NCBI RefSeq assembly: GCF_900465355.1
Contig: NZ_LS483254.1
Span: forward strand, 930,001-994,000
DNA: 64,000 bases
Direction: 5' to 3'
From: Candidatus Bipolaricaulis anaerobius
GTDB taxonomy: Bacteria > Bipolaricaulota > Bipolaricaulia > Bipolaricaulales > Bipolaricaulaceae
This document shows, piece by piece, positions 5,885-46,028 of the stretch. The notes beneath the pieces are model-generated. The model was not told where the DNA came from. It worked only from the letters and a program-made list of their open reading frames with translations, and did not search any database. The stretch's first letter is position 1. The number at the start of each line of letters is the position of its first letter. The translations under genes were made by a program, and so were the position numbers.

Positions 5885-6787
5885 ATGACCGAACCGACGA
5901 CGCGCACCCGCGCGAGCTCCGACGGCGCGTGGAAGCTCCGGGTCAACCTCTTCACCCGAGTCCTCCTCCTCGCGGTAAAGCTGGGCGCGTTCGCCTACAC
6001 AGGGTTCCTCATCATGCTCAGCGAGGCCCTGAACAACCTCGTGGACATCGTCGTCACCTCGTCCCTCCTCCTCAGCCAACGGATGGGGCGCCGCGCCGCC
6101 GACCGCGAGCATCCATTCGGCCATATGCGGTTCCGGTACGTCGTTTCCCTCATCGTGTCCGTTGCGTTCATCACCGTCACCGGGCTGCAGATCCTCCGCG
6201 AGGCGATCGCGCGGCTCATCTCCCCGGTACCGCTTGAGCACCCGGAGATCGCGCTCTACGTGCTCGCCTTCTCGTTCGTGGTCAACCTGATCCCCCTCGG
6301 GCTCATGCTCATCGGCCAGAGGCGCGACATCACGGTGAAGACCGCGCTCTACGACAACATCAACGACGAGATCACGATCCTCGCGTCGGTGATCGGCGTC
6401 CTCGCGGCCCAACGGGGGTTCCCCCTCGCGGACCCCATTGCGGCGATGTTCGTTGCCGGACTGATCGGGGTCATGGCGGGCAAATTGATCCGCGAGAACA
6501 CGTACGTACTCCTCGGCCTCTCGCCCAGTGCGAAGTTCTACGAGAGGGTGAAGTCGGTCGCCCAGAGCGTGGCCGGAGTGGCGGGGGTACACGACATGAT
6601 CGCCGAGTTCATCGGCCCCGACGCGATTCACCTCGATCTCGATCTCGAACTGGCACCTAACACCACGGTTCAGGAGGCCGATCGGCTTGTCGCCGAGCTT
6701 GAGGAAAAGCTGCGAGAACTCAACGTAGTTCACTGCACGATCCGACCCTGCGCCCACACCGGCCACGAACGGCACATCAGCGACTAA
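5885..6787 (+). CDS. Cation diffusion facilitator (CDF) metal/proton antiporter
   Basis: 300 residues with six membrane helices and a C-terminal cytoplasmic ferredoxin-like domain (VKSVAQSVAGVAGVHDMIAE onward). The family signature is visible around LSEALNNLVDIVVTSSLLLS and the loop DREHPFGHMRFRY. The TM2 metal site reads N-x-x-x-D (NNLVD) and the TM5 site reads D-x-x-x-D (YDNIND) where zinc exporters usually have H-x-x-x-D, so the metal may not be zinc. It should export divalent metal from the cytoplasm. The ATG at 5885 was chosen for the AAGGAGGG site just upstream; the frame is open 17 codons earlier. It stands alone. Confidence 0.9.
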   Translation: MTEPTTRTRASSDGAWKLRVNLFTRVLLLAVKLGAFAYTGFLIMLSEALNNLVDIVVTSSLLLSQRMGRRAADREHPFGHMRFRYVVSLIVSVAFITVTGLQILREAIARLISPVPLEHPEIALYVLAFSFVVNLIPLGLMLIGQRRDITVKTALYDNINDEITILASVIGVLAAQRGFPLADPIAAMFVAGLIGVMAGKLIRENTYVLLGLSPSAKFYERVKSVAQSVAGVAGVHDMIAEFIGPDAIHLDLDLELAPNTTVQEADRLVAELEEKLRELNVVHCTIRPCAHTGHERHISD

Positions 6788-6855
6788 GGCCCGCGTCCGC
6801 CGCGGAGTGGTGACGTACTCCCTGGGAGATCGTCCACAAGCCAGATCAATCCTGT

Positions 6856-7629
6856 TCACAACTGACGCAACGAAGGAGAGGAGAGATTCCGCAGCGGGGG
6901 TGGCCCGCCGCCGGTGGCAGGTCCACCTGCTGGGAGCAGAACTCCGGCGCTCCCCATTCCACGAACAGATCCGCCAGCATGTCGATCACATCCGCCGATC
7001 GCAACCTGCGGCCCACCGTGATCGCCAAACACTCCCGGCTGTACTCGTCCACCACCGTCAGCATCCGCACTGGCGCGCACTCTCCGTCCGGTCGTGGAGG
7101 AAGTCGTAGGTCCACACATGGTCCTCGTGGGTGGCCCGAACCGGGACGCCCCACGGCGCTGACGCTTGCGCTTCCGTGGCTGCGTCAGCCCCGCCCCAAC
7201 CGCTGCACTGTCTTGTGGTGATCCCACACCCTTCCCGACGCAACATCGCCCACGCCGTGCGGTAACCGGCATAAGGATGCTCCCGGGCAATGACCTACAG
7301 CCGTGCCTCAAGCTCCTCGCCCTCCTTCCGCTTCACCAAACGGCGCTGATAGGCCGAGCGAGACATCCCGACCAGTTGGCAGCTACGCCGCTCCGGCACC
7401 TGCAACTCCACAAGCTGCCCCCACAGTTGCGTCGCGCCGGCGGCGCTACAGTTTTTCGAATCACCTCCTTCATTGCCTCGATCTCAAGGTCGCGGTCAGC
7501 GATCATCTTCCTGAACTGCGTGTTCTCCTGCCTTAGCCGCCAGTAGTCCCGCACCTCGTTCACCCCCATCCCCCGAAACCGCTTCCGCCAGGATCGCCAA
7601 GATCTCTCGGCGAACCGACTGCGCTTCAT
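6856..7629 (-). pseudogene. Degraded IS3-family transposase (orfA plus orfB remnants)
   Basis: Reading from 7629, an orfA start (MKRSRFAERS) is joined to an orfA end (VNEVRDYWRLRQEN, IEAMKEVIRK), with the HTH part deleted. Reading then shifts frame several times through orfB pieces: MSRSAYQRRLVKRKEGEE, an in-frame stop, YAGYRTAWAMLRREG, THEDHVWTYDFLHDRTE, then LTVVDEYSRECLAITVG and IDMLADLFVEWGAPEF. The first DDE aspartate is still readable (VVDEYS), but the element stops before the catalytic glutamate and the C-terminal part. No clear terminal inverted repeats were found. It is dead DNA marking an insertion hot spot next to the orphan gene at 7916. Confidence 0.85.
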
Positions 7630-7778
7630 CCTCTCCTCCCATCAGTTCCCCGATCCTCCACTATCCCCCAGCCGGAATCCTTAGGTGTACGCCCGAGAAG
7701 CGATGCTGAAGAAACCGGGCTCAGATGATTTGTGGGTGGAGTTATCTTCCCCTCTTCACAGGCTTCCGCCTTTTGTGC

Positions 7779-7903
7779 TATAGTGTGCCATGAAAGGAGG
7801 GTTGTAGAGAGCTGCGTAACTCCCAAGAAATAGCGGATTAATGTAGGAAAATCTGGGAGCGGCGGCCCGTATAAACGCCGGCTATCCCGAAGTTGCGGGA
7901 TAG
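7779..7903 (+). promoter_or_regulatory. Candidate promoter and structured 5' leader
   Basis: TATAGT (7779-7784) is a good -10 box preceding about 130 bases of untranslated leader before the gene at 7916. The leader can form three successive hairpins: CTCCCA (7820-7825) with TGGGAG (7854-7859), GGCG (7861-7864) with CGCC (7876-7879), and a perfect 8-bp stem CTATCCCG/CGGGATAG (7882-7889 with 7896-7903) that ends a few bases before the AAGGAGG ribosome binding site. I do not recognise a known riboswitch. The last hairpin could control access to the RBS. Confidence 0.4.
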
Positions 7904-7915
7904 AAAGGAGGAGGT

Positions 7916-8329
7916 ATGGACGTTCGAGTGCGGCGTAGAGTGGCGATGGGAGCGGTCGGGTTGGTCCTTCTCGCTGGAGTCGTTCTTCTGGCCACGGGTT
8001 TTTACAAAGGGGATACGTTAACAAGCGAAAAAGCCAAAGCGGCCATTGATATCTTTGTTAAACAAGAGGAGGAAGAGTGGGGAGAGGAATATGAATATGG
8101 AGTATATGACGGTGTATATCAAGAAGGAAACAGGGCTTTCGCTTGGTTCTGGGTAGCTATGGATGGTGAGAAGATGGTACATGCTGCAATCTTTCTCCGT
8201 CTAACGGACAAGCGATGGATTCTGTCCGGCTGTACATCTCCACACGATCAGCCATACGTGCTACCTGAGGAGGAAGAGACGCGTGCTGGTTATGTGTATG
8301 CTCCACCGGAGCCGATTTTTGTCCCTTGA
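7916..8329 (+). CDS. Hypothetical membrane-anchored protein, AT-richer than its neighbours
   Basis: 137 residues preceded by AAAGGAGGAGGT, so translation is well supported. An N-terminal helix (MGAVGLVLLAGVVLLATGF) acts as signal or anchor. The rest is a small acidic domain with the Glu-rich stretch KQEEEEWGEEYEYG and conserved-looking aromatic positions (FAWFWVAMDGEKMVHAAIF). I recognise no family. Codon use shifts to A/T-ending codons compared with flanking genes, and the gene lies between an IS3 remnant and a RAYT-type end motif, which suggests acquisition. Function unknown. Confidence 0.75.
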   Translation: MDVRVRRRVAMGAVGLVLLAGVVLLATGFYKGDTLTSEKAKAAIDIFVKQEEEEWGEEYEYGVYDGVYQEGNRAFAWFWVAMDGEKMVHAAIFLRLTDKRWILSGCTSPHDQPYVLPEEEETRAGYVYAPPEPIFVP

Positions 8330-8466
8330 CCGCTCTACCGGTAGGGAGCTTGGGGACAATCCAGCCGATCGCGTCTGGCTTTTGGCCCCGGAAGCGTTGC
8401 GAGCCGGCGGTTGGGGTTGTAAATATAGGGAGGTCACAGGGCTGACCGAAAGAAGCGGCGGCCGAC

Positions 8467-8491
8467 GGGGTCAGACCTTTGTTCTTAAGAT
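8467..8491 (+). repeat. RAYT-type end motif (GGGGTCAGACCT)
   Basis: GGGGTCAGACCT followed by an A/T-rich tail resembles the motif that bounds the RAYT transposase remnants at 44121-44145 and 45352-45377. No transposase is left here. It marks the right edge of the AT-richer cassette at 7.7-8.5 kb. The 257 bases between the gene at 7916 and thiQ hold nothing else I can support. Confidence 0.4.
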
Positions 8492-8586
8492 TCCCACCTA
8501 ACTGCACCCGCCCCTTCTACTGCCGCCCAGCACACTCCGCCCGTCCCTGCTAGCGGTTGTGGCTCGTTGTCGGACAGCAGGCGAGA

Positions 8587-19363: not shown

Positions 19364-19487
19364 AGGCGAGGGCGTTCGGCCGCTTCGGGGCGCGAAGCCG
19401 GCGGGCCCATCGTGCACCTGACCAGTGCCTTCGATATGCTATTTGATGTGCTAGTGGATCTGGTATCCTTAGATGCGAGGGGGCGGC

Positions 19488-22400
19488 ATGGCTCAGCAGA
19501 GGGGAAGCAGCCCGAAGAGACGGGTCGAGCAGTACAAGCATAAGGATAAGGAACGGCTGAACAACCCACCGGCGGGCCTGGTAACGCCGGAGACCGACCC
19601 CGATGCTGGGCAGAAGAAGACCTACGCCTACGATCCCCACCTCGATCCGCAGCTCGTATGGGCGGGCAAGGCCGAGCACACCTCGTTCGAGGTCCCAACC
19701 GTCTCCCTCCATGTTCACGAGCGCATTGACCCGTCCACGATCATCGAGGCGGTTCTGAAGAGGAATGGGGAACAGTACCAGCCGTCGCTCTTCGAGACAC
19801 CGGAGGAGAACCCCCCGATCCGCCAGGCGGTGGAGTTCTACAAGCACGCCCACGGCTGGAGCAACCGCCTGGTCGCCGGTGATTCGTTGCTGGTGATGAA
19901 CTCGCTCTTGGAAAAAGAGGGCATGGCGGGCAAGGTGCAGATGATCTATATCGACCCGCCCTACGGCATCAAGTACGGCTCCAACTTCCAGCCTTTCGTG
20001 AACAATCGCGATGTGAAGGACGGTAAGGACGAGGACCTGACCGCCGAGCCGGAGCAGATCCGCGCCTTCCGCGACACCTGGGAACTGGGCATCCACTCGT
20101 ACCTTACCTACCTGCGTGATCGGCTGCTGCTAGCGCGGGAGCTCCTCACCGAGAGCGGCAGTATCTTCGTCCAGATCAGCGACGAGAACGTCCACCACGT
20201 CCGGGAGTTGATGGATGAGGTGTTTGGAAAAGACAATTTTGTCTCAGTCATTACAGTTGAAAAAACAAGTGGATTCACCGAAATATTAATCCCTTACGTC
20301 ACTGATTTCCTTGTTTTGTATGCGAAGGATAAGAAAACCACAAAATACAATCAGCTTTATTCATCAAAAAAAATAGGTGGCGAAGGTGGTGTTGGATACA
20401 CGAATATCGAATCTCCAGACGGGCGGGAAAGCCGACCACTGACGAAAGAAGAGATGGACGATCCGAGACGAATCCCAAAAGGATGGAGGCCGTTTTTCCT
20501 CGGTTCATTGGCAAGCCAAGGACAAAGCGCCAATACGACTGTTGAATTCGAGTTTAATGGAAAAAATTATTTTCCCGGACATGATCGACATTGGACAGTT
20601 TCATTAGAGGGATTGAAGAGATTAGCAGAAGTTGGACGAATTGCTGAACGAGGAAATGGAATTGCTTATGTGAGGTATTTAGACGATTACCCGGTACAAC
20701 CAATAGTTAATGTCTGGAGTGATACTGGGGGTGGTGGCTTCATTCGAGAAAGAAAAGTTTATGTCGTTCAGACAGCAATTAAAGTCCTTGAGCGCTGTCT
20801 CCTCATGACCACCGACCCGGGTGACCTGGTCTTCGACCCGACGTGTGTGCGGAAGGGGACGGGGGTCTGGGGGAGCCCCACCCCGGCCCTCCCCGTACAC
20901 GGGGAGGGAGCATCCTTGTCCCCCCGTTTACGGGGGGATCACAGGGGGGCTACTTCCCCCCGTTTACTGGGGGACGATAGTGGGGCTACTTCCCCCCGTT
21001 TACGGGGGGATGATAGGGGGGCTGCCGTAATCCCCATCGAAACCATCCGGCCTGATGACTACGTCCTGGGCCATGGTGCTCAACCCCACCGCGTCCTTCG
21101 GCTCATCCGAAAATGGTATCGTGGGGAAATGATCGGCATCCGCCATGAGCACAGTGAACAAACCCTGTGGCTTACCGCCGATCACAAAGTGCTGGCCCAC
21201 CGACGTCCGCACACGCTCGGTGGCCGCTTAGATTGGTCGGCCATCCCTCAACCCCTTCGCGGCAGAAGTAAAGAACTCCGCCGAGAAATGACCCCGCCCG
21301 AGCGAAAATTATGGCAGGTGCTGAGGAAGAACCAACTGGGTATCACTTTTCGTCGTCAGCATCCCATCGGGCCATATATTGGCGATTTCTACTGCCGCGA
21401 GGCTGCCCTTGTGGTGGAGGTAGATGGCGCCGCCGCCCACGGTACTGAGGAAGCGCTTGCCCATGATCAGGCGCGCGACGCCTTCATGCAGTCATTGGGG
21501 CTGAAAATAATTCGCATTCCTGCGGTGGACGTGGAACGCAACCTCGAAGCCGTCTGGCAATATATCGGCGACGTATCCAGTCAGCAATTCTCGCCCGAGA
21601 CGGCGGAATGGATAGAGGCGAAAGAGCTTCGGAAAGGTGATCTGGTCTTTTTCGGCGCGGGTCGTATGCCGGCTCGAATCGTCGAAGTCATTACAGAATT
21701 CACAGAGGAAGAGGTCTATGACCTGGAAGTCGAAGGTGTCCACTCTTTCCTGACAGAAGTCTGTGCTGTCCACAACTGCGGTTCCGGCACCACGGCCTAT
21801 GTGGCCGAGCAGTGGGGCCGGCGCTGGATCACCTGCGACACCTCGCGCGTGGCGCTCACCCTTGCCCGCCAGCGCTTGATGACCGCCATGTTCGACTATT
21901 ACGAGCTGGCCCATCTCAACGAGGGCGTGGGGAGCGGCTTCAAGTACAAGACCGTCCCGCATGTGACCCTCAAATCCATCGCCAACAACCCGGAGATCGA
22001 CGGCATCTACGCCCGGATGCATCCCGCAGTCGAACAGGCGCTTGCCGAACTCAATCGTGCGCTCAAAGGCAAGCCAGTCAAGTTCAAAGTGACCCAGGGT
22101 GGGCGTCAGGGGCAATTCGTGGACTTTGCCGCTCCCGATAGTGCTACCCTCACGATGCCAAGCGGTCAGGTGGTCAAGGTCAACGGACTGTTGGAATCTG
22201 AGGTGCCCTTTGAGTTTCCCGCCGATTGGCCGAAGGAGACGAGGCAGGCCTTCGAGAGCTTCCATCGGGCGCGCCGGGCGATGCGGGAGAAGATCGACGA
22301 GGCGATCGCCCAGCACGCGCCGCAGGAGACGCTCTACGACCAGCCCTTTGTGGACCGGAAGAAGGTGCGTGTGACCGGCCCGTTCACGGTCGAGGCGGTA

Positions 22401-23300
22401 CCTGCACCGGCGGTCAAATCCATTGAGGAAAGTCTCACCCCGACCCTCTCCCAGGGGGAAAGGGAGCCTACGGCCGACGCGTCCGTTGCCCGTTCCGGCG
22501 AGACCCTTCGCCAGGCAGAATGGCGCGACGAGCTTCTCAAGACAGGCATCCGCGGCAGGGGAAGACAGTCCATCCGCTTCGTCCGTCTGGAACCGCTGGC
22601 GGGTTGTCGCTGGCTCCATGCCGATGGGGAGACAAGCGGCAACGGCGCCACCCGTGCAGTCGTGTCCTTCGGACCGGATCATGCTCCCCTGGAACAGCGC
22701 CAGGTGGCAAGTGCCCTCGAAGAGGCCCAGAGGCTTGTTCCCCGGCCCAAGCTCATCATCTTCGCCGCGTTCCAGTTCGATCCCGAGGCGGCGAAGGACA
22801 TCGAGGAGACCAACTGGCCTGGGGTGACGCTCCTCAAGGTGCAGATGAACGCGGATCTTCTGACGGAGGATCTGAAGAAGAAGCGGGCATCGAACGAATC
22901 GTTCTGGCTCATCGGCCAGCCGGACGTGCAGGTGGAGCGGATCACCGAAGGAGAACACGCAGGCAAGGTGCGCGTCTCGGTGAACGGGTTCGACTACTAC
23001 AACACGGTGACCGGCAACATCGAGTCAGGAGGGCCGGAACGGATCGCGATGTGGCTTCTCGACACGGACTACGATGGCCGGAGCCTGTTCCCCCGCCAGG
23101 TCTTCTTCCCGATGGCCGGCGACGACGAGGGCTGGGCGAAGCTCTCCCGCAACCTCCGGGCGGAGATTGACCCCGACCTCATCGAAGCCTACCGGGGGAC
23201 AGTCTCACTCCCGTTCGGGCCCGGGGAGCACAAGCGCATCGCGGTCAAGATCGTGGACGATCGGGGCATCGAGAGCCTGAAGGTGATGAATCTCAGGTGA
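19488..23300 (+). CDS. DNA methyltransferase (type III Mod-like) interrupted by an intein
   Basis: 1270 codons, of which about 959 remain after intein removal. Motif IV is IYIDPPYGIKYGS (D156), and motif I comes later as VFDPT + CGSGTTAYVAEQWGRRW, so this is a beta-class N6-adenine/N4-cytosine enzyme. Between them lies a target-recognition region (about 20217-20800) that is strikingly AT-rich. The C-terminal half (about 400 residues) is typical of methyltransferases paired with BPTD_3080-type helicase-nucleases. A 311-residue intein splits motif I exactly between T452 and C764. A palindromic element also adds residues near 22434. ATG 19488 is preferred over 19473 because GAGGGGGCGG precedes it. 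It is the first gene of a three-gene operon with the OLD-like ATPase and the helicase-nuclease. Confidence 0.93.
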   Translation: MAQQRGSSPKRRVEQYKHKDKERLNNPPAGLVTPETDPDAGQKKTYAYDPHLDPQLVWAGKAEHTSFEVPTVSLHVHERIDPSTIIEAVLKRNGEQYQPSLFETPEENPPIRQAVEFYKHAHGWSNRLVAGDSLLVMNSLLEKEGMAGKVQMIYIDPPYGIKYGSNFQPFVNNRDVKDGKDEDLTAEPEQIRAFRDTWELGIHSYLTYLRDRLLLARELLTESGSIFVQISDENVHHVRELMDEVFGKDNFVSVITVEKTSGFTEILIPYVTDFLVLYAKDKKTTKYNQLYSSKKIGGEGGVGYTNIESPDGRESRPLTKEEMDDPRRIPKGWRPFFLGSLASQGQSANTTVEFEFNGKNYFPGHDRHWTVSLEGLKRLAEVGRIAERGNGIAYVRYLDDYPVQPIVNVWSDTGGGGFIRERKVYVVQTAIKVLERCLLMTTDPGDLVFDPTCVRKGTGVWGSPTPALPVHGEGASLSPRLRGDHRGATSPRLLGDDSGATSPRLRGDDRGAAVIPIETIRPDDYVLGHGAQPHRVLRLIRKWYRGEMIGIRHEHSEQTLWLTADHKVLAHRRPHTLGGRLDWSAIPQPLRGRSKELRREMTPPERKLWQVLRKNQLGITFRRQHPIGPYIGDFYCREAALVVEVDGAAAHGTEEALAHDQARDAFMQSLGLKIIRIPAVDVERNLEAVWQYIGDVSSQQFSPETAEWIEAKELRKGDLVFFGAGRMPARIVEVITEFTEEEVYDLEVEGVHSFLTEVCAVHNCGSGTTAYVAEQWGRRWITCDTSRVALTLARQRLMTAMFDYYELAHLNEGVGSGFKYKTVPHVTLKSIANNPEIDGIYARMHPAVEQALAELNRALKGKPVKFKVTQGGRQGQFVDFAAPDSATLTMPSGQVVKVNGLLESEVPFEFPADWPKETRQAFESFHRARRAMREKIDEAIAQHAPQETLYDQPFVDRKKVRVTGPFTVEAVPAPAVKSIEESLTPTLSQGEREPTADASVARSGETLRQAEWRDELLKTGIRGRGRQSIRFVRLEPLAGCRWLHADGETSGNGATRAVVSFGPDHAPLEQRQVASALEEAQRLVPRPKLIIFAAFQFDPEAAKDIEETNWPGVTLLKVQMNADLLTEDLKKKRASNESFWLIGQPDVQVERITEGEHAGKVRVSVNGFDYYNTVTGNIESGGPERIAMWLLDTDYDGRSLFPRQVFFPMAGDDEGWAKLSRNLRAEIDPDLIEAYRGTVSLPFGPGEHKRIAVKIVDDRGIESLKVMNLR
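20844..21776 (+). other. Intein with DUF559-type nuclease domain, inserted in methyltransferase motif I
   Basis: Residues 453-763 of the precursor (311 aa). The N-terminal splice residue is Cys1 (CVRKGTGVW, block A). Block B is LTADHKVLAH with the T-x-x-H signature (T111, H114). Block F is EEEVYDLEVEGVHSFL, and block G is AVHN followed by Cys+1. All class 1 splicing residues (Cys1, block-B His, penultimate His, terminal Asn, Cys+1) are present, so it should splice. Residues about 141-241 form a DUF559/Vsr-like PD-(D/E)XK nuclease: MTPPERKLWQVLRKNQLG, FRRQHPIGPYIGDFYC, and ALVVEVDGAAAHG. No LAGLIDADG or HNH domain is seen. Splicing restores DPT-CGSGTT, the SAM-binding loop. Residues about 9-54 are a repeat insertion. 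Confidence 0.93.
20891..21009 (+). repeat. In-frame 36-bp palindromic tandem repeats inside the intein
   Basis: Three units start at 20920, 20956 and 20992, exactly 36 bases apart. Each contains the inverted repeat CCCCCCGTTTACGGGGGG (one copy has CTGGGGG). A related palindrome, CCCCGTACACGGGG (20891-20904), precedes them. Because 36 is a multiple of 3, they are read as three near-identical 12-residue units (SPRLRGDHRGAT, SPRLLGDDSGAT, SPRLRGDDRGAA). They sit between intein blocks A and B. Confidence 0.9.
22434..22468 (+). repeat. Palindromic element inserted in the methyltransferase C-terminal region
   Basis: CTCACCCC, ACCCTCTCCC and AGGGGGAAAGGGAG form a dispersed-repeat-like inverted structure. 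It is translated in frame as SLTPTLSQGEREP within a linker of the methyltransferase. A similar element lies at 32350-32388. Confidence 0.6.
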
Positions 23301-23304
23301 TGCC

Positions 23305-25023
23305 ATGCTGACCAAGCTCACAATACGCAATTTCAAGCTGTTTGAGAACGTCGAGATCGAACTCGGCGAACGCGTCGTGCTCATCGGCCCCAACAACGCC
23401 GGCAAGACCTCGGCATTGCAGGCGCTCGCCCTGTGGGACGTGGGGACGAAACGCTGGCTGGAAAAGCGCGGCGGCGGCGCGGTGCCCGAGAAACGCCCGG
23501 GCGTGACCATCAACCGGCGCGACCTGGTCGCCGTGCCGGTGCCCGTGGCCAATCTGCTCTGGCGCGATCTGCACGTCCGCGAGGGCAGCCGTGCGCAAGG
23601 CAAGACCCGCACGCAGAACGTGCTCATCGAGATCGCCGTCGAAGGCGTGGACCAGGGGAAAACGTGGGCGTGCGGGCTGGAGTTCGATTACGCCAACGAA
23701 GAGTCCTTCTACTGCCGGCCGCCGCGCGCCACGGATGGCCAGCGACTGGACGTGCCGTCGCATCTTGCCGAGCTTCGCCTGGCCTACCTACCGTCGATGT
23801 CCGGCCTTTCGCCCCGCGAAGACCGGCTGGAGCTGGGCACGATCAACGTGCGGCTCGGGGAGGGGCGCACGGCAGAGGTGTTGCGCAATCTGTGCTGGCA
23901 GGCGCTCCAATCGGAGAACGGCGATCGGAAGTGGCAGCGGATCGCTGAGCGGATCGAGGCACTGTTTGGCGCGAGGCTCAACGAACCGCGTTACATCAAG
24001 GAGCGCGGCGAGGTGGTGATGGACTACCGCACGCGCGAGGGGATCACGCTCGATCTGTCGGCGAGCGGGCGCGGCCAGCAGCAGACGCTGCTCCTGCTCG
24101 CGCACATGGCCGTGAATCCGGGCGCGGTGCTACTGCTCGACGAACCCGACGCGCACCTGGAGATCCTGCGCCAGCGGCAGATTTACCAGGTGCTCAGCGA
24201 GCAGGCAGAGGATACAGGCAGCCAGATCATTGCCGCCAGCCACTCGGAAGTGTTCCTTAACGAGGCGGCCGATCGTGACATCGTGATTGCCTTCGTCGGG
24301 AAGCCGCATCGGATCGATAACCGCGGCAGCCAAGTGCTCAAGGCGTTGCGTGACATCGGCTTTGAGCATTACTACCTCGCCGAAGAGACGGGCTGGGTGT
24401 TGTATCTCGAAGGCTCGACCGATCTTGCGATGCTCCGGGCCTTCGCTAGCGCATTGAAGCATCCGGCGCAGCAGTTTCTCGACCGGCCGTTCGTGCACTA
24501 TGTCGGCAACCAATCGCGCGAGGTGCGAAAGCATTTCCACGCTTTGCGAGAGGCCAAGCCGGACCTTGTCGGCATTGCCATCTATGACCGACTGGATGAG
24601 AACTTGCCGGACGATCCGAGGCTTGTGCAACGGATGTGGACGCGGCGCGAGCTGGAGAATTATCTGTGTCAGCGGGAGACACTGCTCGCCTATGCCGAAG
24701 AGCAGGGGCGCAGACAGCAAGGCGACCTCTTCGGCGTGGCATGGCGGACGGCCATGGAGGAGGCCATCCGGCAGGTCGAAGGCGCCCTGCGGAGGTCGGA
24801 CAAGGACCCGTGGAGCACCGACATCAAGGCGAGCGACGAATTCCTCGAGCCGTTGTTCAAGCAGTTCTACGAACGGCTTGGTCTGCCGAATCTCATGAGC
24901 AAGACCGATTACCACGCGCTGGCGGCTTTCGTGCCGGCGAACGCGATCGACCGGGAGATCGGGCAAGCGCTCGACGCCATCGTGGCTGTGGCGGGTGCTG
25001 CGAAACCGCGCGGGACCGCGTAA
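23305..25023 (+). CDS. OLD-like AAA/ABC ATPase with TOPRIM-like C-terminal segment
   Basis: 572 residues. The N terminus is SMC/RecF-like: LTIRNFKLFENVEIELGE, Walker A GPNNAGKTS, a degenerate ABC signature (DLSASGRGQQQTLLLLAHM) and Walker B AVLLLDEPDAHLE, then IIAASHSEVFL. After about residue 360 comes a TOPRIM-like segment with the glutamate of VLYLEGSTDLAM and acidic residues in IAIYDRLDEN. This is the OLD-nuclease layout, found in Gabija-type and retron-associated defence, although the TOPRIM motifs here are only approximate. It starts 4 bases after the methyltransferase stop, and its stop overlaps the start of the next gene by 1 base (TAATG). It is probably a third, phage-defence-related component of this system. 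Confidence 0.85.
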   Translation: MLTKLTIRNFKLFENVEIELGERVVLIGPNNAGKTSALQALALWDVGTKRWLEKRGGGAVPEKRPGVTINRRDLVAVPVPVANLLWRDLHVREGSRAQGKTRTQNVLIEIAVEGVDQGKTWACGLEFDYANEESFYCRPPRATDGQRLDVPSHLAELRLAYLPSMSGLSPREDRLELGTINVRLGEGRTAEVLRNLCWQALQSENGDRKWQRIAERIEALFGARLNEPRYIKERGEVVMDYRTREGITLDLSASGRGQQQTLLLLAHMAVNPGAVLLLDEPDAHLEILRQRQIYQVLSEQAEDTGSQIIAASHSEVFLNEAADRDIVIAFVGKPHRIDNRGSQVLKALRDIGFEHYYLAEETGWVLYLEGSTDLAMLRAFASALKHPAQQFLDRPFVHYVGNQSREVRKHFHALREAKPDLVGIAIYDRLDENLPDDPRLVQRMWTRRELENYLCQRETLLAYAEEQGRRQQGDLFGVAWRTAMEEAIRQVEGALRRSDKDPWSTDIKASDEFLEPLFKQFYERLGLPNLMSKTDYHALAAFVPANAIDREIGQALDAIVAVAGAAKPRGTA

Positions 25024-27821
25024 TGGGCAAGACCACCATCGGCCGGCTCATCATCAACTCGCCGTTCGAAGAGCCGCAGCGGCACTGGCGCTACGACCGC
25101 GAGACGCGCACCTTCGACCTCGTGGACGGGCGACGGCCGGCGGGCTACGTGGTGGCCTCGGGCGAGTCGCGCGCCTTCGACGATCCGGGCATCTTCGTCG
25201 AGATTCCGCTGGTCAACCAGATTCGCCCGCGCGTGGCGGCGTGGCGCAACGCAGGCTATCCGGGCGTATCCAGTATCACCAAGCGGCTGCTGGAGCACTG
25301 GCGCGACCCGGAGGAGTTCGACGCGCGGCGGTTCTTCTTCTGCCAGCTCGAGGCCATCGAGACCCTGATCTGGCTGACCGAGGCGCCGGACTCTGAGCGT
25401 GTAGGAATCGAGATCCCCGGTGACGGTGGGGAGATCCTGCGCCGCTGCTGCAAGATGGCCACTGGGGCCGGCAAGACGATTGTGATGGCGATGACCATCG
25501 CCTGGCACATCCTCAATAAGGTGACCTACCCCCAAGATCCACGGTTCGCGAAGAACGTGCTCGTGATTGCTCCTGGGCTCACGGTGCGCAATCGGCTGGC
25601 GGTCCTGGGGCCCTCGGCACCGGGGAACTACTACGAGGAGTTCCGCATCGTGCCCCCCAGCCTTCTCGAAAAGCTGCGTCAGGGGCGAGTGCTGATCCGG
25701 AACTGGCACGTCCTCAACTGGGAGACCGACACCCAGATCGCGAAGAAACGCAGTGTAGACAAGCGCGGAGCCAAGAGCGATGAGGCCTACACCCGCGAGG
25801 TCCTGGGAGAGATGGCAAACGCGCGGAACTTCCTCGTCATTAACGACGAGGCGCACCACGCATGGCGTGTGCCCGCGGAGTCGAAGATCAGAGGGGTTGC
25901 GAAGGAGGACATCGAGGAAGCGACGAAGTGGATCGGCGGATTCGATCGGCTCCACCGCACCCGAGGCATCCTCGTCGCTTACGATTTCAGTGCCACACCG
26001 TTTGCCCCGTCAGGGAAGAAGAGCACGGAGGAGGCTCTGTTCCCGTGGATCGTGAGCGACTTCGGACTCAACGATGCCATCGAGTCCGGCTTGGTGAAGA
26101 CCCCCCGTGTAGTCGTCCGGGATGATGCGGTGCCCGATGCGAAGACGTATCGCTCACGGCTCTACCACATTTACAACGACCCCGAGGTGAAGGATGACCT
26201 GAGCCGGAAGGCCGAACCTCATGAACCCCTCCCTGACCTCGTCCTCAACGCCTACTACCTGCTTGGTTACGACTGGAATGAGACTGCGGAGCACTGGGAG
26301 AAGGCGGGAATGCCCACGCCTCCGGTGATGATCACTGTCTGTAACCGCACCGAAACCGCGGCCCGCGTAAAGTATGCCTTCGACCACCACCAGATCCGGA
26401 TCACCCGACTCTGTGACCCCAACTGCATCCTTCACATCGACACGAAGGTACTGAAGAAGGCGGAGGAAGAAGAGGAGCCCCTCACAGCCGTCAGTTCCAT
26501 CCCTGATGACGAAGAGGGGGAAGAAAACGGCGAACCCAAACGCAAATTGACGAAGAACGAGCAGGCAGAGGTCCTTCGGCAACAAGTGGACACCATCGGA
26601 CGGCTTGGGCAGCCCGGAGAGAAGATCCAGAACGTCATCTCGGTCGGGATGCTCAACGAAGGCTTGGATGCGAAGACCGTGACGCACATCATGGGCCTGC
26701 GCGCGTTCACCAGCCAGCTCCTATGTGAGCAGGTAGTCGGACGGGGATTGAGGCGGACGAGCTACGAAGTGGACCCGGAGTCTGGTCTGTTTGACGCGGA
26801 GTACGTCAACATCTTCGGTGTTCCGTTCACCTTCTTGCCTCACGAGGGAGCGCCTTCCACCGTGGCGCCGCCGAACCCCAAGACCGCGATTGGCCCGGAC
26901 CCAGCGAAGGCAAAGTACGAGATCCGTTGGCCTTGCATTGTCAGGATTGACCACGTGATGCGACCAATTCTCTCGTTGGACTGGGACAAGATCGCCCCGC
27001 TGTACCTTGACGCCTCACAGACAGCGAAGGTCGCGGAGTTGGCCCCCATCGTGGAGGGGAAACCCGACCTCTCGAAGATTGCCGCCATTGACCTGGAGCG
27101 GCTGGCCCAGGAGTTCCGGACCCAGAGGATCATCTTCGAGACGGCCCGCGATGTCTATGACCAGATGCAACATCGCTGGCAGGGAAGTAAGGAAGTCCTA
27201 CTGGCTCAGCTGGTCCGGATCGTTGAACAGTTCATCCGCTCCGACAAGATCCTCATCACCCCATCTTCCTTCTTCCACAGCGACTTACGCAGGCGGCTCA
27301 TCATCACCCTGAATATGTCCCGAGTTGTGCAGCACATCTGGGAGGCGATTCGGTTTGAGAACGCGGAGCGCCTGGAACCCGTGTTTGACCGCGATCATCC
27401 GATTCGCTCTACGGCAGACATGACCACGCGGTACACAGGTAAGCCCTGTGAGCGGACACAAAAGTCGCACATCAACTTCTGTGTCTACGACAGTACCTGG
27501 GAGGCATCCGATGCGTTCACCCTCGACCACAGCCCTCTTGTGGAAGCGTGGGTGAAAAACGATCACCTCGGCTTCGAGATCTTGTACCTGCACAAGGGGA
27601 TCGTCCACAAGTATCGTCCTGACTTCCTCATCCGGCTTAAGTCCGGGGAGATGCTTATTCTGGAAACGAAAGGACAGGTCACAGAACAGGACCGGACGAA
27701 ACTGAGGTTCCTCGATGAGTGGGTGAGGGCGGTGAACGCCCATGGAGGGTTTGGCTGCTGGCGGTGGGCAGTTGTCGAAGGTCCAGGCGAGATTCAAGAC
27801 GTCATCGCAAACCACAGCTAG
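25023..27821 (+). CDS. Type III restriction-like helicase-endonuclease (BPTD_3080 family)
   Basis: 932 residues. SF2 helicase motifs: Walker A MATGAGKT (near residue 145), DEAH box in LVINDEAHHAW, motif III YDFSATPF, and a second RecA domain with SVGMLNEGLDAKTVTHIMGL and QVVGRGLRR. Near the C terminus HKYRPDFLIRL and LILETKGQ give the P-D...E-x-K nuclease core. It matches the restriction subunit family that accompanies this kind of methyltransferase. It should cleave unmodified DNA after ATP-driven action. It is translationally coupled to the ATPase gene upstream. The last operon gene ends without an obvious hairpin, 123 bases before the convergent clpP stop. Confidence 0.93.
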   Translation: MGKTTIGRLIINSPFEEPQRHWRYDRETRTFDLVDGRRPAGYVVASGESRAFDDPGIFVEIPLVNQIRPRVAAWRNAGYPGVSSITKRLLEHWRDPEEFDARRFFFCQLEAIETLIWLTEAPDSERVGIEIPGDGGEILRRCCKMATGAGKTIVMAMTIAWHILNKVTYPQDPRFAKNVLVIAPGLTVRNRLAVLGPSAPGNYYEEFRIVPPSLLEKLRQGRVLIRNWHVLNWETDTQIAKKRSVDKRGAKSDEAYTREVLGEMANARNFLVINDEAHHAWRVPAESKIRGVAKEDIEEATKWIGGFDRLHRTRGILVAYDFSATPFAPSGKKSTEEALFPWIVSDFGLNDAIESGLVKTPRVVVRDDAVPDAKTYRSRLYHIYNDPEVKDDLSRKAEPHEPLPDLVLNAYYLLGYDWNETAEHWEKAGMPTPPVMITVCNRTETAARVKYAFDHHQIRITRLCDPNCILHIDTKVLKKAEEEEEPLTAVSSIPDDEEGEENGEPKRKLTKNEQAEVLRQQVDTIGRLGQPGEKIQNVISVGMLNEGLDAKTVTHIMGLRAFTSQLLCEQVVGRGLRRTSYEVDPESGLFDAEYVNIFGVPFTFLPHEGAPSTVAPPNPKTAIGPDPAKAKYEIRWPCIVRIDHVMRPILSLDWDKIAPLYLDASQTAKVAELAPIVEGKPDLSKIAAIDLERLAQEFRTQRIIFETARDVYDQMQHRWQGSKEVLLAQLVRIVEQFIRSDKILITPSSFFHSDLRRRLIITLNMSRVVQHIWEAIRFENAERLEPVFDRDHPIRSTADMTTRYTGKPCERTQKSHINFCVYDSTWEASDAFTLDHSPLVEAWVKNDHLGFEILYLHKGIVHKYRPDFLIRLKSGEMLILETKGQVTEQDRTKLRFLDEWVRAVNAHGGFGCWRWAVVEGPGEIQDVIANHS

Positions 27822-27944
27822 CAGCCTACGCGGAACTACGAACCATGAACCTTCGCACGTCGGCTTCCTGATGAACGGGCGTACGAGCTAACGGAACCTC
27901 CGCGCATCGGTCGGCACCGGTGACAGCGGTTCTCACACCCCCCA

Positions 27945-43323: not shown

Positions 43324-43622
43324 CCCTGCTCGCGCAGCGAGGTGTGATTCGTCTTCGTCACGATGATGTGGACGAGGACCTCGATCCCCAGATCTTCCCC
43401 GCCTCGACGAGCTGGCGGGGGGGGGCGAGGTCGTCCCCGCTCCACCGCGCGAGCTGCGGACCGGCGTCCTCCAGGCGCGCTTGGGCCAGCTCGACCGCGC
43501 TCTTCCCCCTCGTCCCGGTGCGGATGAGGACGGCGAGGAATTCGGCGTCCGACAACGCCTTGGGACCCGCGGGCGCGGAGCTTCTGCGGCCGATCCATCT
43601 CCGGGAGGTCCTTGATCCCCAT
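43311..43622 (-). pseudogene. Broken radC (UPF0758/JAB) gene
   Basis: Reading from 43622, MGIKDLPEMDRPQKLRARG begins the RadC N terminus, then the frame shifts by one to PKALSDAEFLAVLIRTGTRG and KSAVELAQARLEDAGPQLA. The frame changes again after a large internal deletion to the C-terminal GIEVLVHIIVTKTNHTSLRE and its QGYIP tail. The catalytic JAB metal motif is lost. RadC-like genes often travel with mobile DNA. It lies between tatD and a decayed RAYT transposase. Confidence 0.85.
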
Positions 43623-43665
43623 CGTAGCCCCCTGCCCCCAAATCGTAGCCCTCCGCCCGGCTCAT

Positions 43666-44099
43666 TCACCCCGAAACAATAGCGCAGAGACAGATCTCAC
43701 AGTACGACGGCCCCGCCTCGCGCCTCTCTCGCCGACGGCTGACCGTGGCGTACTGGAGGCCCAAGGCCTCGGCGATCTCCTTGAGGGTGTATCCGCGGCC
43801 TCCACCACGCAGGACGTGCCCCAGCCGGTTGTTCCGGCGGTTGAAGCCCGGGGGGTAGGCCCCGTTGAGGACCTGCATCCCCTGGGATTGGTTGAGCGCG
43901 TCTGCACAGGCCGGTGACAGTGGTTTGGCATCAAACAGGAGGCGTGACAGATCCAGTTGTACCGTGTGACGACGTCCTCCAGGACCTTCAAGAAGCTCAA
44001 CCGGTCTTCGTCGTCCAGGAAGATATCTTGGCGGTCATTACCACGGCTTTTGATGTGGCACACCGCGCCCTCATATTCGATGCGTAACGGGCGTGCCAC
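43666..44099 (-). pseudogene. Decayed REP-associated tyrosine transposase (RAYT)
   Basis: The N terminus is intact (MARPLRIEYEGAVCHIKSRG, DRQDIFLDDEDRLSFLKVLE), with the HUH motif in SCLMPNHCHRPVQ. A frameshift follows; the continuing reading is QVLNGAYPPGFNRRNNRLGH, and after a deletion that removes the catalytic tyrosine it resumes at RGYTLKEIAEALGLQYATVS. It cannot be active. RAYTs mobilise small palindromic REP elements. Confidence 0.9.
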
Positions 44100-44120
44100 A
44101 CGCCAAGTGTGTCGCGCCTA

Positions 44121-44145
44121 ACACCAAAGGTGAAGACCTGACCCC
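44121..44145 (+). repeat. RAYT end motif, left copy
   Basis: ACACCAAA, two variable bases, then TGAAGACCTGACCCC. Its reverse complement directly precedes the RAYT start at 44099. The same motif in opposite orientation is at 45352-45377, where it contains the stop codon of a second RAYT remnant. Confidence 0.75.
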
Positions 44146-44158
44146 TTCACTTCACTGG

Positions 44159-44464
44159 ATGGAGTCGTTCTGGGCCCACTTTAAGGGGGAGAACGTGTCG
44201 CTGTTTCTAGACGCGGCGACGTTGGAGGAGCTGGAGTGGGTGATCGGGAGGCAGATGGACTACTACAACTGCGAGCGCAGGCACTCTAGCCTTGACTATC
44301 GATCGCCCATGGAGTATCTTGTAAATATAGGGTTTATCCCCGAAACGGTAGCGGAAAACGGGGGGGGTAAAAGTGGTTCCGCCACAGGGGCGCAGGGCCG
44401 GCGTGCCCGAACGGCTGTGGTGAATTCTGGTTGCCGGAGGAAGATGATGACGAGTGAAATGTAA
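44159..44464 (+). pseudogene. IS3-family transposase C-terminal fragment
   Basis: MESFWAHFKGENVSLFLDA and YNCERRHSSLDYRSPMEYL are the end of an IS3 OrfB, carrying the last DDE glutamate (MESFW). Everything upstream (orfA and the first two aspartates) is missing. The fragment then reads on into unrelated sequence to a stop at 44464. It represents the part of OrfB that the remnant at 6856-7629 lacks. Confidence 0.85.
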
Positions 44465-44494
44465 GGAGGTACAGTCTAAAAGGAGGTAATACCA

Positions 44495-44560
44495 ATGCTC
44501 AAGCTAGTCAAGTCCAAACAAACCCGTTGGGAAGAACTGGAGGCCAGAAAGCAGTCTTAG
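44495..44560 (+). CDS. Possible 21-residue small ORF
   Basis: ATG at 44495 is preceded by a perfect AAAAGGAGGTAATACC ribosome binding site. The peptide is very basic and acidic (MLKLVKSKQTRWEELEARKQ, ending in S) and would form an amphipathic helix. It lies directly upstream of another AAGGAGG and the AT-rich gene at 44595, so it may be a leader peptide or a small protein. No family known. Confidence 0.4.
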   Translation: MLKLVKSKQTRWEELEARKQS

Positions 44561-44594
44561 AAGGAGGTTTTCCGCATGGCTGTTTTGCTGGGTT

Positions 44595-45335
44595 ATGGCA
44601 TTGTTTGGCGTGGCTGGAATAGTTGTAACCTTAGTTATGCTGATTGTTAGATCTATCTTTAAACGCGACGGGGGCAAGAAAAGGCTTTGGATAATTGGTG
44701 CTGCGTCGTTAGTTCTGTTTATAGTTGGAGTAGTTACGGGGATATGGTCAGTGCCAGATGGATATAATGCAGGACAGCAGGTTGCAGAGGTTAGCGAACC
44801 CGTGTCTCTTCAACAAGAACAAGAGCAAAAACCAGAGCAAGAAATCGAGCAACCTTCCACTCCGGAACAATCGGCGGTTACCCCTATAGAAGAGGAACAA
44901 GTGTTTCAAAAAGAGGAAAAACCAAAACCATACCAGGAATGGCTTAAAAGCACGGTGGAGGCAGAAATCGGCGCAGAATCAAATTTGAATCTGCCACGGG
45001 TTGCGGGGATCGATTTCGAGAATGGCGATGAGTCTAAGCCGGTAATTTCTTTGGTCGCTGACGATAACCTAACGATTAATTTAGTAAGGACTGTAATGCT
45101 GTTTGATGCAACTAACGTTTTTAAGGCGATATTTGCTGATGGTAGAGCAAAGGTGGTCACCATCGTTTGGGGTCGGCCGGTTACTGATAAATATGGAAAC
45201 ACAAAAATGAAGGCTGTTATGGGAATAGAAATGTCCAGAGATACGGCAAACAAAATCAACTGGAGTAATTTTCTTCATAGCAATTTGCCTAAAGTGGCGG
45301 ATGATTTCTATGAAGCGCCGCAGTCTGAATGGTGA
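44595..45335 (+). CDS. AT-rich hypothetical protein with two N-terminal membrane helices
   Basis: 246 residues. Two helices (FGVAGIVVTLVMLIVRSIF and KRLWIIGAASLVLFIVGVV) are followed by a Gln/Glu/Pro-rich low-complexity linker (LQQEQEQKPEQEIEQP) and a C-terminal alpha/beta domain (AKVVTIVWGRPVTDKYGNTK, MGIEMSRDTANKINWSNF). The layout resembles membrane-anchored proteins of low-GC bacteria, but I cannot name a family. Codon use is far more A/T-rich than the surroundings. ATG 44595 has no ribosome binding site; a well-placed AAGGAGG serves ATG 44576 in another frame, so a one-base loss in the TTTT run at 44582-44585 may have broken the original start. Confidence 0.7.
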   Translation: MALFGVAGIVVTLVMLIVRSIFKRDGGKKRLWIIGAASLVLFIVGVVTGIWSVPDGYNAGQQVAEVSEPVSLQQEQEQKPEQEIEQPSTPEQSAVTPIEEEQVFQKEEKPKPYQEWLKSTVEAEIGAESNLNLPRVAGIDFENGDESKPVISLVADDNLTINLVRTVMLFDATNVFKAIFADGRAKVVTIVWGRPVTDKYGNTKMKAVMGIEMSRDTANKINWSNFLHSNLPKVADDFYEAPQSEW

Positions 45336-45351
45336 GTTGAGTGAGGTCATG

Positions 45352-45377
45352 AGGGTCAGGTCTTCATTTTTGGTGTT
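45352..45377 (-). repeat. RAYT end motif, right copy
   Basis: On the reverse strand it reads AACACCAAAAATGAAGACC and then TGACCCT. It overlaps the TGA stop of the RAYT remnant at 45364 and mirrors the motif at 44121-44145, so the two copies bound the AT-rich cassette between them. Confidence 0.75.
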
Positions 45378-45846
45378 TCCTCGCCTCCGCCACCCGGTTG
45401 GTGATGATGCTCACCGTCGAATAGTACAACCCCAATGCATTTGCCACTTCCTTGAGGGTATACCCGTAAACACGAACGGCTTGATAGATCCGTTCATTTC
45501 GATCGGACTTGTCCTTGATGCCGGAAAAGAGCTCCTCTAGTTTGGGCCGGGTCACCAGCCTCTCCCTCCGGGGAATCTCCACCGCGGAGGACCTCCCTCG
45601 CAATAGCGGTTCCAGCGCCTCCACGAACCGCTCCGTTCCCAGGATCACCCCACCGCGAAGATCGGCCCAGACGTCGATCCCGCGCCCCTCCTTGACAAAC
45701 TTCCGATATTCCTTCTCCGCCCGAGCACGGTCCTGGTGAAATTGGGACAATACCCAATCCGTGGCGAGAAAGTCCGGGGGTTCTTCTTCCCCGGCTGTTG
45801 CTCGGTAGCTGCTCCACCGCCAGGCGCCAGGATGGCGGACGAGCCC
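45364..45846 (-). pseudogene. RAYT transposase, C-terminal half only
   Basis: From GLVRHPGAWRWSSYRATAGE through FLATDWVLSQFH, FVEALEPLLRGR, IPRRERLVTRPKLEELF to the HTH-like tail VYGYTLKEVANALGLYYSTV, this matches the second half of RAYT proteins. The HUH motif and catalytic tyrosine half are missing; upstream in-frame sequence to 46005 is unrelated. It is a separate copy from the remnant at 43666-44099. Confidence 0.87.
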
Positions 45847-45867
45847 TAAGGCAAGTCTACCACCCCC

Positions 45868-45904
45868 GGCGCCAAAAGTGATGACCATGCATTGCCTTTG
45901 GCGC
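45868..45904 (+). repeat. Imperfect hairpin next to the RAYT remnant
   Basis: GCGCCAAAAG (45869-45878) pairs imperfectly with CCTTTGGCGC (45895-45904) around a 16-base loop, just beyond the truncated 5' end of the RAYT. It may be a REP-like substrate element or the scar of its truncation. Confidence 0.4.
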
Positions 45905-46028
45905 ACATCGAGTGTGCCGGTCTTGCCAGTATAATGCATCGCCTTAAGACGCACGGACCGATACAGGAGCTCACCCTCCGCTAGGCCCGGTTGGCTTGGG
46001 GGCAAGCCTCGGGTACCATCGCCCGCCG

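Follow-up and report, generated by a model that had tools for sequence, protein, structure and literature searches.

Two AT-rich blocks in the chromosome of Candidatus Bipolaricaulis anaerobius as probable accretion islets of IS3, TIRtron and phage-gene remnants

Results

Two blocks absent from the closest relative

The window, by which we mean the whole 64-kb stretch that was analysed, comprises bases 930,001-994,000 of the 1.32-Mb single-contig genome of Candidatus Bipolaricaulis anaerobius (G000). Its GC content is 0.679, and GC3 in three chromosomal genes is 0.87-0.91. Two AT-rich blocks, A and B (Table 1), are missing as units from the closest relative compared (G007), which is syntenic with G000 across most of the window, with an identity of 92-95%. 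The position of block A is taken in G007 by 204 unrelated bases, and at the position of block B the flanks are separated there by 21 bp (between 108738 and 108760 of contig C6). The edges of block B are located 480 bp and 599 bp beyond its TIRs and are not TIRs themselves.

Table 1. Features of blocks A and B (positions in the window)
Feature	Position	Strand	Description
Block A	6809..8574		Absent from G007; blastn breaks at 6808 and 8575, and junction alignment
Transposase remnant	6890..7650	-	Degenerate, several frameshifts/stops, rve domain; IS3-like by reading
AT-rich ORF 7916	7916..8329	+	137 aa; predicted N-terminal membrane helix, then helix and strands
Solo TIR of block A	8467..8492	-	AAGGTC subtype; 34.6 bits (training median 33.5)
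Block B	43665..45951		Between radC and the GH57 gene; absent from G007
TIRtron remnant 1	43665..44145	-	Broken RAYT/TIRYT gene with internal deletions; N-terminal part kept
TIR of remnant 1	44120..44145	+	AAGACC subtype; 30.3 bits
IS3 orfB 3' end	44147..44400 (end approximate)	+	Begins at the TIR, truncated there
AT-rich ORF 44595	44595..45335	+	246 aa; two predicted membrane helices, proline/glutamine linker, conserved C-terminal domain
TIR of remnant 2	45352..45377	-	32.0 bits; downstream TIR, holds the stop codon of the RAYT gene; faces the cargo
TIRtron remnant 2	45364..45850	-	C-terminal half of RAYT/TIRYT gene with putative helix-turn-helix

In block A, the rve domain of the transposase remnant was matched with E=2.6e-5 and 24.9 bits, under the curated cut-off of 32.6, and the domain search gave no transposase match for the other pieces of this remnant. 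The GC content of the 7916 ORF is 0.50 and its GC3 is 0.46. Searches of Pfam and NCBIfam with its product were without match, PHROG gave one marginal match only, and relatives were absent from 99 other genomes of the class, phages, plasmids and viral contigs; the structure model of this protein is weak (mean pLDDT 50). The TIR at 8467 has no partner TIR nearby, the other sites in the window with more than 15 bits being found only in block B. The body of the element to which it belonged would lie to its right and is missing.

Block B has RAYT (Y1-transposase) remnants on both sides of its cargo, that is, of the IS3 3' end and the 44595 gene; the cargo sits between the TIRtron remnants and is therefore outside both elements. 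In remnant 1, whose Y1_Tnp match of 17.2 bits is below the cut-off, it is the outer, upstream TIR that faces the cargo, and this TIR forms with the TIR of remnant 2 a 25-nt inverted repeat of 92% complementarity. Remnant 2 is 67% identical to an intact 327-aa relative (an ORF of L074), in which Y1_Tnp was detected with E=6e-11 and 42.9 bits (cut-off 23). In the 45364 frame, HTH_23/Sigma70_r4 were matched at residues 172-205, which is the expected place, with scores below the cut-offs. The N-terminal part of remnant 1 and the C-terminal part of remnant 2 have, respectively, 92% and 91% identity to the matching parts of a TIRtron with an internal deletion at 462.6 kb of the genome, and the helix-turn-helix parts of remnants 1 and 2 differ. 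The IS3 fragment contains an rve_3 domain (E=2e-7, 31 bits over a cut-off of 26.5) and shares 76% nucleotide identity with the IS3 at site D, described below. The GC content of the 44595 ORF is 0.44 and its GC3 is 0.41, and about 18 bp separate its stop codon from the right TIR. An ATG at 44576 (region 44576-44600), which has a strong ribosome-binding site in front of it, is out of frame with the 44595 ORF; a one-base indel near the beginning of the gene, or an error of this size in the assembly, is possible.

Several further differences or coincidences were noted in the window. The radC gene beside block B (43423-43664) is about 0.33 kb shorter in G000 than in G007 and is probably a pseudogene. 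A lower-GC segment of 8.6 kb (19364-27944) is absent from G007 and encodes an N6/N4 DNA methylase along with DUF559, an AAA ATPase and a ResIII-type helicase; by gene content it looks like a restriction-modification or defence island. The 14-base sequence TTGTAAATATAGGG has only two exact copies in the genome, at 8417-8430 in block A and at 44319-44332 in block B; it might be a sliver of the same IS3 at both places, but it is too short to be used.

The end motif is a TIR of the TIRtron kind

The sequence-only reading of this DNA described a motif in both blocks as a RAYT-type end. We searched for it with a 26-base position matrix whose training set was 55 TIRs of the other genomes of the genus, with G000 left out. 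Exactly three sites in the window scored strongly, at 8467 (34.6 bits), 45352 (32.0) and 44120 (30.3), while the next-best site had 14.9 bits and the maximum over 10 shuffled windows was 11.5. The core AAGRYCTGACCCC was counted 127 times across 12 genomes of the genus, its reversed control not once, and GAAGACCTGACCC, with at most one mismatch, gave 19 matches around 30 RAYT loci of the class versus none in shuffles. At many of these 30 loci, an inverted TIR pair about 905 bp apart encloses the RAYT gene. The motif is not a product of chance. One copy of GAAGACCTGACCC, at 822.7 kb of the genome, is embedded in GC-rich and apparently coding DNA and is devoid of the fourth C of the core, and was treated as a chance match.

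Di Nocera et al. (2013, PMC3733652) describe TIRtrons by the inverted-repeat consensus GGGGWSAS and name their transposases TIRYT. According to Quentin et al. (2018, PMC6006769), most TIRYTs belong to subclass 2.1 of TnpA-Y1, have a C-terminal helix-turn-helix and equal RAYT group 1. The elements studied here share with TIRtrons the Y1 gene, which has a putative C-terminal helix-turn-helix, the GGGGWSAS inverted repeats (here GGGGTCAG), and the occurrence of short TIR pairs and solo TIRs; they differ in that the copies of G000 are broken, and foreign genes lie beside the elements, not inside them. The ends are genuine 26-bp TIRs of a known element kind, TIRtron/TIRYT. The RAYT-type label was therefore correct as far as they are TIRs of RAYT-like TIRYT elements; they are not REPs, and REP/GTAG palindromes as ends were ruled out in favour of TIRs of the GGGGWSAS kind. 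The relation to the IS3 family is indicated by the rve_3 domain at B and by a complete orfB (rve/HTH_21/rve_3) at site D, although B retains only a 3' fragment and the remnant at A is too degenerate to be placed by curated score. The elements at A and B belong to known kinds. The TIR is that of a little-studied kind which is common in the genus, and in G000 such TIRs can serve as handy markers of lateral-transfer scars.

TIR loci elsewhere in the genome and in relatives

The genome of G000 contains four TIR loci, namely, A, B, C (462.6 kb) and D (1264.4 kb), all of them beside AT-rich genes and with a 500-bp stretch of under 56% GC nearby. Site C comprises a TIRtron derivative, a GNAT gene (GC 0.48) with its stop codon some 25 bp away from a TIR, and an IS256-type transposase; a tRNA-like sequence, read by eye, is located upstream. 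Site D comprises the complete IS3 orfB, an AT-rich ORF of 412 aa without match in Pfam, a TIR pair of 146 bp and a gene of PemK/MazF-type toxin. The content of C and D differs between G000 and G007, and all four loci of G000 are in regions unlike those of G007. Our search of G000 for Y1_Tnp gave one sub-threshold match only.

A piece of 99 bp from the cation-efflux gene beside block A (6495-6593) is copied at site C, about 474 kb away, with 95 of 99 bases identical. The copy (L008 3496-3594, 462.5 kb of G000) ends about 4 bp before the TIR and is slightly closer to the cation-efflux gene of its own genome than to that of G007 (92.9%).

The genome-wide search proposed in the sequence-only reading thus found AT-rich genes beside every TIR locus of G000, but the pattern did not extend to the complete congener G009. 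This genome has more TIRs than G000 (14 loci with 22 cores, all fetched), RAYT was matched three times in its long open frames, and none of its 14 loci has a 500-bp stretch of under 56% GC (lowest value 0.560). The difference between 4/4 and 0/14 would arise once in 3060 cases (by hand, one-sided) or, without A and B, which had been chosen as AT-rich, once in 120 (2/2 versus 0/14); the stretches scanned at C (17 kb) and D (5 kb) were generally longer than those in G009 (3.5-6 kb), though the dips at C and D are close to the TIRs. Weak GC dips (minimum 0.54-0.57) are found at some TIR loci of relatives of lower GC (L148, L149, L151, L152 and L157), and the contrast is cleanest only against G009. 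The AT-rich neighbourhood is a feature of the G000 islets and not of the TIRtron element; since none of the G009 loci is under the threshold, the cargo is not an element property.

G007 gave no match for RAYT and has only one TIR core. The latter is part of a TIR pair of about 60 bp (L145 1680-1735, C6 94.68 kb) in a 2.2-kb segment absent from G000, and the gene next to it has a normal GC content and a start that resembles a signal peptide.

The 44595 protein belongs to a phage-linked family

The genes at A and B were both regarded as orphans in the sequence-only reading. While this holds for 7916, the product of 44595 matches PHROG 8263 (E 7.7e-16) and PHROG 25008 (E 1.9e-15), the matches spanning residues 77-242 and 115-243. 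It has relatives in Anaerovirgula (L070), in a pair of Patescibacteria-type metagenome genomes (L071 and L072), in viral contig L103, in three phage records (two of them of the same phage) and in two plasmids. The gene of this type adjoins a recombinase in L070 and L103, which share one sequence, in L071 and L072, and in two phages, Geobacillus virus E2 and Parageobacillus phage NIIg3.2. In a plasmid of Bacillus paralicheniformis that carries phage genes, an integrase is no more than a few genes away from it. In total, an integrase or recombinase is beside or near the members of this family in six distinct contexts (L070, L071, L072, H1, H3 and H4); in a seventh, a Sarcina plasmid (H5), the annotation shows no integrase within 4 kb.

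Among the 99 other genomes of the class there was no clear relative of 44595, the three matches with E 0.003-0.009 being too weak, and the Pfam and NCBIfam searches gave sub-threshold membrane or linker matches only. The C-terminal domain (112-236) was modelled well, with block means mostly of 73-93. Its best viral match is A0A8S5QPN9 (E 8e-9), and its matches in PDB are weak fold matches only, the best with E 6.5e-3; the sequence search of PDB gave nothing at E below 0.2. Given that relatives of 44595 occupy the neighbourhood of integrases in phages and prophages, the gene is best read as a stray gene of a phage lysogeny region. It differs from its relatives, which adjoin the integrase in phages and prophages, in that it stands alone, without an integrase or other phage genes. 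The predicted membrane anchor permits a guess at a surface or superinfection role.

Discussion

The AT-rich ORFs, transposase remnants and end motifs reported at A and B in the sequence-only reading are all real and could be located and scored. The architecture that the two blocks were thought to share was not confirmed. Block A consists of a transposase on the minus strand, an ORF on the plus strand and one TIR, while block B consists of a TIRtron (minus), an IS3 3' end (plus), an ORF (plus) and a second TIRtron (minus). The IS3 pieces of the two blocks have no significant nucleotide similarity and are oppositely oriented relative to the ORF, the proteins 7916 and 44595 are unrelated, and the TIRs are of different subtypes. 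The resemblance between A and B is largely a matter of chance, and a suggestive but wrong cassette can be removed from consideration.

In our opinion, A and B are accretion islets at permissive sites, composed of remnants of IS3, TIRtrons and phage genes; we assign this reading a probability of roughly 0.8. Such islets would be intergenic or gene-end spots at which unrelated mobile DNA piled up and decayed. Block B contains two broken TIRtrons, elements that are moved by a RAYT-like HUH tyrosine transposase acting on inverted repeats of the GGGGTCAG type, together with an IS3 3' end and a membrane-anchored gene of a family found beside phage integrases. Block A contains a broken transposase, an unrelated membrane-anchored gene and one TIR that is left over. 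The AT-rich genes probably arrived by lateral transfer, that of 44595 from a prophage, and the insertions and deletions of IS and TIRtrons may have been separate events at the same permissive spots, where probably nothing moves today. The mixture is different at each of A, B, C and D, the RAYT genes of B and of the 462.6-kb locus have been truncated or have lost internal parts, and at B a TIR abuts a truncated IS3. All four loci do adjoin AT-rich genes, and a transposase, an AT-rich gene and a TIR stand side by side at three of them (A, B and D), which speaks against independent accretion. It is weak counter-evidence, two of these loci having been chosen by the sequence-only reading, and the co-occurrence is expected from pile-up at few permissive sites. 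Lateral-transfer hotspots (PMC5635113) are comparable in being small, variable parts of the chromosome, few in number, that contain foreign genes; the islets described here are much smaller (1.8-2.3 kb) and are found in a 1.3-Mb genome.

That genes such as 44595 could be carried as cargo between RAYT/IS ends, as was previously proposed, would imply for block B that the IS3 piece and the gene once lay between two directly oriented TIRtrons, that RAYT moved all of them, and that the outer parts were lost later. The RAYT gene is indeed on the minus strand in both remnants, both surviving TIRs face the cargo, and G007 lacks the block as a whole. Nevertheless, the outer ends are not TIRs, the differing helix-turn-helix parts imply that the remnants are not copies of one element, and those '-/+' TIR pairs in relatives that we examined enclose either a RAYT gene or less than 400 bp without RAYT, with no cargo-bearing pair among them. 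The body of a TIRtron is enclosed by a '-' and a '+' TIR. With the gene of B outside both TIRtrons and a single TIR at A, the cargo proposal is not supported, and we regard such composite transposition as quite unlikely. Block B may still have arrived in one event, as the empty site in G007 corresponds to the absence of the whole block. Such empty sites, which the sequence-only reading had suggested looking for, do exist for both A and B, but the order of arrival is not readable from G007 because whole blocks are missing there. Loss from G007 of blocks that were ancestral would agree with the lack of RAYT matches and the single TIR core in that genome, which are compatible with purging. It is hardly credible, however, when the composition of both ORFs is foreign, neither ORF was found in relatives, and tatD and the GH57 gene are close to each other without an insert in G002, G005 and G009 (spacing of 1.0-1.15 kb, with no RAYT and no 44595 gene in between; seven relatives were fetched, and in the other four the GH57 gene was outside the fetched stretch). 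For block B, these three further relatives point to gain in G000 and not to loss in G007; for block A, the comparison of gain and loss is with G007, the matches to the cation-efflux gene elsewhere in the genus being under 30% identical.

The other suggestion of the sequence-only reading, that such scars are preferred landing sites, is partly supported by the position of all four G000 loci in regions unlike G007. In its stronger form, TIRs or broken IS would act as targets beside which foreign genes land later. In favour of this, every TIR locus of G000 is a mixed islet, the content of C and D is not the same in G000 and G007, and several TIRs of G000 are just past stop codons (18 bp at the right TIR of B and about 25 bp at that of C). 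Still, the 14 TIR loci of G009 are of ordinary GC, and permissive location accounts for the same data without attraction, which makes attraction by scars improbable.

Tandem repeats at TIR tips

More intriguing than the cassette finding itself are tandem repeats that consist of the TIR tip (GACCCC) and a few bases of the flank. With at least 10 matching bases and a period of 9-19 as the criterion, they are present at 12 of the 81 TIRs in loci of the genus (in L113, L117, L123, L124, L132, L133, L150, L151, L153, L154 and L156), as compared to 0/113 TGACCC sites at distances above 150 bp from any TIR and 0/525 GACCC sites. Our literature search returned no account of such repeats for TIRs or TIRYTs. 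For REPs, a related phenomenon is known: Di Nocera et al. (PMC3733652) mention REP clusters that are tandemly reiterated together with the DNA at their flanks.

The repeats could have been left by the transposase through repeated one-ended joining. We can only speculate, and consider it improbable, that TIRYT enzymes of this lineage use single TIRs as one-ended joining points at the tip (TGACCCC), to which foreign DNA or the flank would be joined repeatedly, leaving the tandem tip-plus-flank repeats and TIRs abutting truncated genes. TIRs of the latter type adjoin the IS3 at B and the 99-bp cation-efflux piece at 462.6 kb. If this were true, islets A and B would be partly enzyme-built, although no gene was carried between two ends. 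The repeats offer a testable footprint of DNA joining by these transposases. At 29 loci of the class level, they are present at 2 of 46 TIRs, both in L080.
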